A stretch of 64,000 nucleotides of DNA, taken from a virus. The number at the start of each line of letters is the position of its first letter. The first letter of the stretch is position 1. A program made the translations under genes and the position numbers. Shown piece by piece: positions 1,682-61,842 of this stretch. The notes beneath the pieces are model-generated. The model had not been told where the DNA came from and made no database searches. It saw nothing but the letters and a program-made list of their open reading frames with translations. Location: positions 1 through 64,000 of the IMG/VR virus record IMGVR_UViG_3300042731_001312. One strand, 5' to 3'.

Positions 1682-2257
1682 ATGGCTAAAAAAATTCTAT
1701 CATTTGAAGAGTATCAAGTTCAGTTAAACTCTGAACAAGAGGCTCCTGAAGCTACTGAAGAAGTTACCACAGAAGAAGAGGTTGCTGAAGAAGAAGTTGA
1801 AGAAACAGAAGAGGATGAAGTTGAGTCTGAGGAATCTGAGGAATCTGAAGAAGACGATGATGACGATGATGATGACGACGATGACGACGATGATGACGAT
1901 GATGACGATGATGACGACGATGACGACGATGATGACGATGACGACGACGATGAGTCTGAAGAGTTAGAACAAGATAATCCTACAGTAGAAGACATGATGG
2001 CTGAAGCTTACAACAAAGTAAAAGAGGCTGCATGTGCATACGAAAAAGATGACTACCAAGACCATACATTAGAGTCTTACATGAAAGAGAATGCTGCTCT
2101 TGCTGCTGCTCTTGCTGCTAAGGCGATGGAAGAAGGTTACGGTGAAGTTAAAGAAACAGAATTAACCCAAGAAATGTACGAGGCTGCTTGTAATGAGATT
2201 AAAGATGCTTATGCAAAGAAGATCGACGAAATGAAAGAGGCTTGGGGCGCAGAATAA
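1682..2257 (+). CDS. Highly acidic protein with capsid-targeting-like N-terminus (prohead core candidate)
   Basis: 191 residues. The N-terminus (KKILSFEEYQVQLNSEQEA) resembles the T4 capsid-targeting signal that directs internal proteins into the prohead. Then come a Glu-rich stretch (about 24-57), 33 consecutive Asp (58-90) and a helical, Ala/Glu/Lys-rich C-terminal half. T4 has a small, very acidic prohead core protein (gp67), so a scaffold or DNA-mimic role inside the head is plausible, but I see no direct homology. It opens a run of three such genes ending at a terminator. The start is fixed by the ATG after an A-rich leader. A serine-rich frame on the opposite strand is a shadow of the Asp codons. 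Confidence 0.7.
   Translation: MAKKILSFEEYQVQLNSEQEAPEATEEVTTEEEVAEEEVEETEEDEVESEESEESEEDDDDDDDDDDDDDDDDDDDDDDDDDDDDDDDDDESEELEQDNPTVEDMMAEAYNKVKEAACAYEKDDYQDHTLESYMKENAALAAALAAKAMEEGYGEVKETELTQEMYEAACNEIKDAYAKKIDEMKEAWGAE
1853..1951 (+). repeat. Run of 33 aspartate codons (GAY)n
   Basis: Every codon is GAC or GAT, in irregular mixture, so the tract is uniform at protein level but not a perfect trinucleotide repeat. Selection for an unbroken Asp run, with synonymous drift or selection against slippage, explains this better than recent repeat expansion. Confidence 0.95.
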
Positions 2258-2259
2258 TT

Positions 2260-2610
2260 ATGAAGCATATCAAACCGCTTAACGAATTTAAGGCTACAGA
2301 TATTAAAGCCGTGCATGAGTCTGATAAGACTCCTACTATGCTATTAGCAGATGAAATCGAAGGAGCTGAATACCACATGGCATTTAGTGACGGAGAAAGT
2401 GTTGAGGCTAGATCTACTAAGAAAACATGGGACGATGGTGTACCTGTACTTAAGTATATCGCCAGAGCTCCTAAGAAATACGTAGACTTGCCGAAAGGTA
2501 AATTTGAGGTGGTTATTGACGATAAATACGGATGGTATTACTGGCAACACAAAGGCGTCTGGTATGGTATGGAGACTGACGACGATACAGTACCTCCATT
2601 TGAATATTAA
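2260..2610 (+). CDS. Small protein with capsid-targeting-like N-terminus, function unknown
   Basis: 116 residues starting KHIKPLNEFKATDIK, which shares the Lys/hydrophobic/N-x-F opening of its neighbours. The start at 2260 is two bases after the upstream stop; an in-frame ATG at 2242 lies inside the upstream gene and is less likely. The rest (AEYHMAFSDGESVEA; FEVVIDDKYGWYYWQHKG) looks like a compact beta-rich domain. No family recognised. The position among acidic and capsid-targeted proteins suggests a head-internal protein; this is inference. Confidence 0.65.
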   Translation: MKHIKPLNEFKATDIKAVHESDKTPTMLLADEIEGAEYHMAFSDGESVEARSTKKTWDDGVPVLKYIARAPKKYVDLPKGKFEVVIDDKYGWYYWQHKGVWYGMETDDDTVPPFEY

Positions 2611-60644: not shown

Positions 60645-60645
60645 T

Positions 60646-61842
60646 ATGCCTTCTGTAAGTAAGTCACAACAAAGATTAATGGGAATGGCCTATGCTGTTA
60701 AATCCGGCGATATGGAACTCTCAGACATTGACCCAGCTTACAGAGATAAAGTAAAATCATTATCTGACGGAATGACAAAGAAAGACTTAAAGAAATACGC
60801 TGCAACAAAGCATGATGGTCTACCAGAGACGGTGGATGAGGCATTTATTGGACCTTTTGTATTTAATGACAGTATGTCTGATGAAGAATTACTAGGAATG
60901 TACAATGGAGCATTAGATGGCTATGCTAACTATGCTAAAGGAATGTATTACCCTAAATCGGATTACAAGAAAGCTTATCAAGAAATTGAAAAGATTTTAA
61001 AGAAGAGAGGAGTTTCAGTAGACGAAAGTGCACAAGGGGCTGTATCTTTAAATCCAGGCATGACTATCGGTGGTATTGGTGACCCGATGCTTCCAACAGC
61101 AACTGAATTTGGATCGGGCGACGTACCTGCAGTAGCAGATATTGACGACGACGAAGAAGAGGCTAAAAAAGATAATACAAAAACAAAGTTAGAGATGGAA
61201 AATTTACATTTAACTTTCGATAGTTTCTTAAATGAAGCTTCTAATTTTAACGATCCAGTTTTAGTAGCTTTTAGAGCTGCTAGAATGAAGAGGGAAGAAG
61301 AGCTTGCAAAACCAAAGCGCAAGCCCCTTTATGGTAAACAAAGACAAAAAGCTGAAGATGATCTGTGGAATATTAGCCAAGACTTAAAAGATCTATATGC
61401 AGATAGAGGTCAAATGTTAATTGACATGGAACAAGAAGCAGAGGCTGAAGGTGGTCCAATTGCAGACGAATACGGAGGCAAATTAAATGATATTGAAGAT
61501 CAAATTCAAGCGCTAATTGTTAAGAGAAATAAACTTGAAATGAAATTAGCAGAATCAGTAGTTAATGAAAAGAAGCTAGATAGAGAAGACATGATGGCTT
61601 GGATCGAACAACACATGGATTTTGTAAGAACTACTGAAGAATTCAACGGTTCTCCAGGTGGCATCTGGGTTTCAGGTGAGAATGGCGACGAGTATAAAGG
61701 TAGAGTAATCTATGCATACTACTCTGAAGACTACAAGAACAGAACATTTGGTGTAGATAACAGATGGGAAAAGGAACTTAATAAAAGAGGGTGGTATAGT
61801 GAATGGCATGATGCAGGCACATCCATGATTTGGCCACTATAA
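60646..61842 (+). CDS. DUF3008-like domain fused to capsid-targeted units
   Basis: 398 residues. The N-terminal 60 residues (VSKSQQRLMGMAYAVKSGDM, then MTKKDLKKYAATKHDGLPE) match a small phage domain of the DUF3008 type, function unknown. An acidic linker leads to Met184 (ENLHLTFDSFLNEASNF), an internal capsid-targeting-like element with an L-x-E site. A coiled coil and a final domain after AESVVNEKKL follow (VIYAYYSEDYKN). A terminator lies just downstream, so this closes the operon. Confidence 0.6.
   Translation: MPSVSKSQQRLMGMAYAVKSGDMELSDIDPAYRDKVKSLSDGMTKKDLKKYAATKHDGLPETVDEAFIGPFVFNDSMSDEELLGMYNGALDGYANYAKGMYYPKSDYKKAYQEIEKILKKRGVSVDESAQGAVSLNPGMTIGGIGDPMLPTATEFGSGDVPAVADIDDDEEEAKKDNTKTKLEMENLHLTFDSFLNEASNFNDPVLVAFRAARMKREEELAKPKRKPLYGKQRQKAEDDLWNISQDLKDLYADRGQMLIDMEQEAEAEGGPIADEYGGKLNDIEDQIQALIVKRNKLEMKLAESVVNEKKLDREDMMAWIEQHMDFVRTTEEFNGSPGGIWVSGENGDEYKGRVIYAYYSEDYKNRTFGVDNRWEKELNKRGWYSEWHDAGTSMIWPL

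Follow-up and report, generated by a model that had tools for sequence, protein, structure and literature searches.

A capsid-targeting sequence of the T4 kind as a probable loading address for diverse proteins of a marine T4-like virus

A short N-terminal sequence is shared by a set of otherwise unrelated proteins of a marine T4-like virus known from a linear IMG/VR record of 101109 bases (IMGVR_UViG_3300042731_001312), of which bases 1-64000 make up the window analysed here. This sequence is very probably a capsid-targeting sequence of the same kind as that of T4, acting as a general loading address for cargo that is processed by an S77 prohead protease and injected, partly in the form of polyproteins. 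The data support a known mechanism, T4 capsid targeting, together with new extensions of it. For this phage, the presence of the tagged proteins in virions, core binding, cleavage, injection and most of the cargo functions are predictions drawn from sequence.

According to the proposed mechanism, the aromatic residues of F-x-x-[FY], three positions apart, would tether each precursor to the core of the prohead. During head maturation the S77 protease encoded at 88742 would cut after [LIV]-x-E and so free the mature cargo within the capsid, from which it would pass into the next host along with the DNA. The cargo would be of three sorts: proteins of the head core, factors acting in immunity or host takeover, and RNA-repair/NAD enzymes. 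Several of them would be polyproteins and, since tags and [LIV]xE sites lie also between domains and at a C-terminus, one precursor could deliver several mature domains. Proteins entering the cell with phage DNA are usually known through virion proteomics only; a sequence rule, checked against one published proteome, opens to testing many uncharacterised, probably early-acting anti-defence or host-takeover proteins.

The tag, the prohead protease and the fit to T4

The N-termini of all 95 genes were compared across the full record, including the part beyond the window; by megablast, the record had no match among known phages. A sequence-only reading of the window had named eight genes (1682, 2260, 2684, 46505, 52734, 54603, 57766 and 58152), and all eight N-termini read as it had described them. 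Its count of about ten tagged proteins is correct only when 88340 and 92542, outside the window, are added (Table 1). The family that it had placed across 1682-61842 consists of real tagged genes, but the interval is not one element, as they fall into three groups (1.7-3.1, 46.5 and 52.7-61.8 kb). Overlooked were a C-terminal copy in 55884 and internal copies in 52734, 55884, 58152 and 60646.

Table 1. Positions of tags, predicted cleavage sites and domains in the window, with two tagged genes beyond it; a slash marks a predicted cut
Positions	Strand	Feature	Sequence or motif	Basis or remark
1682..1714	+	N-terminal tag	MAKKILSFEEY	191-aa Asp/Glu-rich protein, gp67-like composition
2260..2289	+	N-terminal tag variant, Leu replacing first Phe	MKHIKPLNEF	sequence
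2684..2722	+	N-terminal tag and cleavage motif	MKHIKLFEQFINE	sequence, motif statistics
46505..46534	+	N-terminal tag, exact T4 register	MRTFNEYLVE	123-aa protein, weak glycine-zipper match
52734..52769	+	N-terminal tag	MGSLKLQSFEEF	start of 616-aa multidomain protein
52965..52973	+	predicted site directly ahead of GTRSQ (phrog_1987) domain	IEE/	junction comparison
53322..53351	+	internal tag in 52734 protein	PAFESFIINE	sequence
54603..54641	+	N-terminal tag	MKIYTNFQEFLNE	RNA-ligase-like enzyme; [LIVM]xE at residue 13 in 33/35 homologues
54672..54680	+	second predicted site, directly ahead of GGAAGHM	VFE/	[LIV]xE in 35/35 homologues of 54603
54681..55871	+	predicted mature ligase-like enzyme	KTDG, EGLVFK	Foldseek best matches RNA/tRNA ligases, weak (E 5e-3, prob 0.92)
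55884..57035	+	RNA ligase 2-like domain of 55884	EKIDASS	Foldseek to T4 Rnl2, E 3e-7
57030..57113	+	disordered inter-domain linker with predicted site in 55884	FNQYLLNQ, ITE/	AlphaFold2, conservation
57114..57686	+	NMN adenylyltransferase-like domain of 55884	GRFQPFTLGH	PF01467, E 2e-7; Foldseek NadM, E 1.8e-5
57714..57743	+	C-terminal tag in 55884	LTFEAFLKNI-stop	conservation; preceding linker variable
57766..57813	+	N-terminal tag and site (residues 14-16) before SIQFGSYYY	MRNIKTFEAF, VNE/	domain-junction comparison
58152..58181	+	N-terminal tag, exact T4 register	MATFEDFLSE	start of 830-aa multidomain protein
59610..59672	+	internal tag in 58152 protein	MKTEFLFESFSDFVGANFLNE	sequence
60646..60831	+	DUF3008 domain in 60646 protein	MPSVSKSQQRLMG	PF11450, E 5.7e-10
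61042..61122	+	copy of the major capsid protein's post-cleavage N-arm, in 60646-61842 protein	VSLNPGMTIGGIGDPMLPTATEFGSGD	alignment to major capsid protein 91041
61195..61236	+	internal tag in 60646 protein	MENLHLTFDSFLNE	sequence
outside window		tagged gene 88340	MKIIKTFEEFIQE	between portal (86711) and protease (88742); gp67/gp68 position
outside window		tagged gene 92542	MLNTNKIKLFEEF	directly after major capsid protein (91041)

Two aromatic residues three positions apart near the N-terminus, equivalent to T4 residues 4 and 7, are found in 9 of the 10 genes, the exception being 2260 with Leu in the first place. The [LI]xE that the earlier reading had often seen next directly follows the second aromatic in 5 of the 10 (2684, 46505, 54603, 58152 and 88340); 1682, 2260, 52734, 57766 and 92542 have no [LIV]xE directly at the tag. 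Later sites exist in some of these five, and 1682 and 92542 lack a clear [LIV]xE site adjoining the tag. Pfam gave no family and PHROGs none convincing for 1682, 2260, 2684 and 57766; among relatives, a homologue of the 2260 mature part sits inside a larger protein (locus L030), a tagged homologue of 2684 is present (locus L023), and the orthologues of 46505 retain the tag.

A motif comparison over the whole phage, which the earlier reading had proposed as a check, found the tag enriched at protein starts and position-specific. Over the 95 genes, F[END][EDA][FY] occurs 7 times at residues 4-10 against 0.17 expected from protein bodies (Poisson P 8e-10; maximum of 4 in 2000 shuffles), and [FY]xx[FY][LIVM]xE occurs 5 times at protein starts against 0.19 (P 2e-6). 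The looser F-x-x-[FY] alone is enriched too (13 versus 2.7 expected) and was dropped as a membership rule because unrelated genes, clear non-members, match it as well; in T4 this loose motif is not significant (11 versus 7.5 expected) and the full motif alone is (3 versus 0.26). Whole-protein [LIV]xE density was also rejected as evidence, with 20 per 1000 residues in cargo versus 17 in the remaining proteins. The site is short and common in Glu-rich proteins, so that a single one means little and only consistent placement at junctions counts.

A gp21-class prohead protease, on whose presence in the full genome the earlier reading had made itself depend, was found as a Peptidase_S77 domain (PF03420, 88817-89155, E 8e-15, over the curated cut-off) within the 728-aa protein 88742-90928, which matches the PHROG head maturation protease (E 1e-32) and is located between portal and major capsid protein. 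The long acidic, scaffold-like C-terminal part of this protein suggests a protease-scaffold fusion. The order portal, small tagged protein, protease and capsid protein in the head operon is that of T4 genes 20, 67/68, 21, 22 and 23. Across the tagged contigs of at least 88 kb that were searched, the S77 protease is present in 15 of 15, and it is absent from 10 of 11 shorter fragments. The tagged, very acidic protein 1682-2257, with about 30 Asp in a row, is similar to the acidic region of the protease-scaffold protein. Elsewhere in the record, a plus-strand structural block is broken by two minus-strand genes (16719-17607), and beyond the window DNA polymerase B is apparently split over separate ORFs (67868-74591, with the motif KLTLNSIYGAFGN in 73383-74591), ribonucleotide-reductase-like genes lying between its possible pieces.

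In T4 IPIII the first ten residues are enough for packaging, targeting depends mostly on residues 4 and 7 and processing on residues 8 and 10, and gp21 cuts after [LI]xE (PMC9026906). The tag reproduces these experimentally mapped residues and fits the T4 DETERMINANTS. The T4 internal proteins and their capsid-targeting sequence were reportedly described by Mullaney and Black in 1996. Applied to T4, the strict rule returned only IPII, IPIII and gp61.1, and among nine reference phages scanned, a pattern widened to allow T4 spacing recovered the three T4 genes. The T4-like capsid-targeting reading thus draws support from the S77 protease, from the match to the IPIII determinants and from the runs of the rule on T4 and on the cyanophage S-CREM2 (see below). 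Like the proteins described here, T4 IPI, IPII and IPIII carry aromatic-x-x-aromatic followed by [LI]-x-E at the N-terminus, ahead of unrelated mature parts, in a phage with a gp21-class protease; T4 Ip1-3 are injected inhibitors of GmrSD restriction (PMC9026906, PMC12373910). Unlike in T4, the majority of tags here have three additional residues (MKxIKLFEEFINE) and tags stand also at internal and C-terminal positions, and while ten or so cargo families have been reported for T-even phages, about 45 are counted here among the matches listed, with enzymes and multidomain proteins. In phiKZ and SPN3US a relative of gp21 cleaves several inner head or ejected proteins after Glu (PMC5694885, PMC9026906), mostly behind long propeptides of 100 residues or more and without the short shared aromatic tag seen here. 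In KVP40, the hypothetical protein KVP40.0066 (39187-39834; L245) begins with MKQFCNFLAE, a tag in T4 register ahead of a possible methyltransferase.

Predicted polyproteins and capsid-arm copies

The internal and C-terminal copies may be read in two ways. It may be, and we put this forward tentatively, that the large proteins are polyproteins whose N-terminal, internal and C-terminal tags all work, and that these phages possess a second device, a protein with a copy of the capsid protein's post-cleavage N-arm (DUF3008 proteins here, gp61.1 in T4) serving for lattice docking or maturation-site mimicry. It is also possible, though less likely than not, that the internal and C-terminal copies are relics of gene fusion, old N-terminal tags which are read through and remain uncut, so that the large proteins would be packaged whole; the internal copies in 58152 and 60646 indeed begin with Met, like a fused second gene. 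Against such relics speaks the observation that domains begin immediately after [LIV]xE whether they stand alone or are fused. The GTRSQ domain is preceded by [IV]xE in all contexts listed, whether in a stand-alone tagged protein (L036) or inside 52734-type proteins, and the 57766-type domain has [VL][ND]E directly before it in all versions listed but one (TNE). In Microcystis phage Mel-JY01, an NMNAT-like domain precedes the 54603-type enzyme in a fused protein, and IIAE/ stands where the two meet.

The disorder of the linkers in AlphaFold2 models is likewise at odds with fusion relics: in 54603 residues 16-31 are disordered and a confident fold follows, and in 55884 the pLDDT is below 50 for most of residues 383-410, within which E409 is nearly invariant, with further disorder at 602-612. 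Moreover, the C-terminal tag of 55884, the peptide EFLTFEAFLKNI, is kept in 32 of 33 aligned sequences, and a C-terminal tag is found also in a virion-detected cyanophage protein, the Cas9-annotated nuclease ORF12 of S-CREM2 (OR473000, 10313-7704, minus strand), which has KTFRDFLN at the C-terminal end besides a tag close to the N-terminus. Where proteins of the 55884 type continue into an additional domain (L068, L070, L081), the C-terminal tag becomes LTFNDFINE/, LTFNDFIGE and LTFNDFIFE/, respectively, between the domains. Towards its end, the tagged protein 52734-54584 contains imperfect repeats of the form EGNAFxAARAEAIAKG..F.V.G..YPV.

Two known systems come close to the predicted polyproteins. 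T4 Alt is a packaged enzyme cut by gp21, for which C-terminal processing has also been reported (PMC9026906); it is an ADP-ribosyltransferase with a different N-terminus, whereas the C-terminal element described here plainly copies the tag. About 35 residues before the C-terminus of Alt (L209:35454-37502) the sequence FASFV occurs. The polyvalent proteins of phages and plasmids also consist of several domains, and their injection and division into units has been suggested (PMC5512222). For these, splitting by a metallopeptidase domain of their own has been proposed, while the sites found here fit the prohead protease and are accompanied by packaging tags; the multidomain architecture is seen in the cargo, with one weak MPTase-PolyVal match among 44 cargo representatives (E 0.009).

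The capsid-arm copy VSLNPGMTIGGIGDPMLPTATEFGSGD aligns with the capsid protein segment VSLNPGMTLAGMGDTAFPTSTANGSGD, which lies just after the likely cleavage site LYE/D, with a score of 96 against a maximum of 67 in 500 shuffles. A search of contigs with the capsid protein returned arm copies at E 2.5e-7 and 3.6e-7, and such copies are present in cargo of more than 30 loci (including L065, L070 and L081), mostly in DUF3008 proteins; the majority of relatives have a protein arranged in a similar way. T4 has a counterpart, and the arm copies are testable in a standard laboratory phage: residues 2-38 of gp61.1 (L207:18966-19130) form an ungapped alignment with gp23 57-93, a stretch spanning the gp23 cleavage site (score 82, maximum 49 in 2000 shuffles), the arm equivalent sitting behind the capsid-targeting sequence. 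No description of capsid-arm copies was found in the literature; our guess is that the copy docks the protein in the capsid lattice.

Cargo identities and cyanophage virions

A family test for T4 RNA ligase 2 (ligase fold and lysine motif) places the N-terminal domain of 55884 in this family and 54603 weakly so. The latter, for which a PDB sequence search was unsuccessful, is probably a ligase, judging from weak structural matches of its model. In a relative, a tagged protein (L145:4618-5370) contains the Thoeris inhibitor Tad3 (PF25185, E 9e-22, 77.5 bits against a cut-off of 27), the domain beginning at residue 44, right after SINE/ at 41. Another family (L089), with 13 instances, has both HxT motifs and scores 21.9 bits against the anti-CBASS nuclease Acb1 (PF23474; cut-off 27); a 2H phosphoesterase, weakly Acb1-like, is the safe call. 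Further tagged cargo in relatives comprises a zeta-toxin-like kinase and ATP-grasp enzymes. Such cargo could plausibly protect early on against immune signalling and the cleavage of tRNA. Tad3, 2H phosphoesterases and RNA ligases are predicted to be deliverable ready-made, ahead of any phage gene expression.

These identities bear on the reading that confines the tag to structural head proteins, where it would bind the prohead core or the scaffold; the tagged proteins would then remain in the head or be lost from it during assembly, and would not be effectors injected into the host. Consistent with it, 88340 and 92542 lie in the head operon, 1682 is acidic like T4 gp67, and the core proteins of T4 are degraded and not injected (PMC9026906). 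It is nevertheless improbable, for among the cargoes are many enzymes or proteins of known anti-defence function (Tad3, 2H phosphoesterase, RNA ligase, kinase, ATP-grasp), and tagged enzymes have been detected in mature cyanophage virions.

The virion proteome of S-CREM2 comprises 52 published proteins (PMC10665884). In a small test on its 247 ORFs, the strict rule, used with ATG starts, picked three, all three of them virion proteins (P 0.008): a SAM hydrolase (MKDFDSFLEE), a hypothetical protein (MQTFSMFFSE) and a cytidylyltransferase (MKNFSSFLTE). A relaxed rule, defined after seeing the strict picks, gave seven virion proteins among ten (P 9e-4), adding a kinase, a small protein and the Cas9-annotated nuclease; the seven include a structural protein whose match is doubtful. 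NMNAT-like proteins have been found in virions of S-CREM2, S-SCSM1 and S-SM1 (PMC10665884, PMC9602691, PMC3037559), and the NMNAT-like genes of the first two begin with a T4-register tag, MKSFLQFLKE in the S-SCSM1 virion protein. The C-terminal domain of 55884 has relatives in such cyanophage cytidylyltransferases, and the tag offers a reason for the recurrence of NMNAT-like enzymes in cyanophage virions. S-SCSM1 ORF30 has a strict-looking T4-register tag, yet is not annotated as a virion protein. The S-CREM2 paper (PMC10665884) does not mention a targeting signal, and no report of a capsid-targeting sequence in cyanophages was found in the open-access literature.

The amphipathic, Lys-rich N-termini could in principle have nothing to do with the capsid and serve in the cytoplasm as a signal for localisation, stability or assembly, one example being a helix that directs proteins to a membrane or a replication compartment. 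The co-occurrence of the S77 protease, the [LIV]xE at T4 processing positions, the match to the T4 determinants and the S-CREM2 proteome make this very unlikely.

The tag in relatives

In 80 IMG/VR loci with a homologue of 54603 (54-96% identity), the tag is constant while the flanking residues vary (MKIYYKFTEFLNEV, MKKLYTFKEFLSEK, MNKILSYKEFIVER), and 28 families have at least one member that matches it. When 36 families were selected by the aromatic pair only, the next residue was I, L or V in 76% and the third residue E in 70%. A DNA pattern for MKxxKxFEEF[hydrophobic]xE, searched in IMG/VR, matched at least 120 stretches exactly, and a control with FEEF scrambled to EFFE matched none. Nearly all of 97 instances among the matches listed have an in-frame stop a few codons upstream, and thus represent real gene starts. 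The 78 distinct tag DNAs among the matches listed show synonymous differences, a sign that the peptide is what selection acts on. The mature parts form 47 clusters among the matches listed (single linkage at E 1e-3), or about 45 unrelated families after removal of false positives. Since relatives tag dozens of protein types, the proteins carried into the cell should be predictable from sequence. A recently duplicated DNA cassette or a functionless chance resemblance, suggested by the shortness of the motif and the adjacency of several tagged genes, has next to no likelihood given the 7 matches versus 0.17 expected, the empty scrambled control, the synonymous codon variation and the conservation of the tag while the rest of the N-terminus changes.

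A wider pattern gave no convincing tag in the cultured Bacteroidota phages PTm1, MaF61 and pT24, and hence no cultured phage of the same dialect was found. The distant 462-kb phage LR756500 has 21 tags against 0.42 expected, in a dialect of its own (MKYIKEYEEFLNE). About 13 proteins of LR756500.1 (L211-L220) also share the C-terminal tail NADDFGFFDN or close variants of it, nearly all of them with an N-terminal tag or a variant of it.
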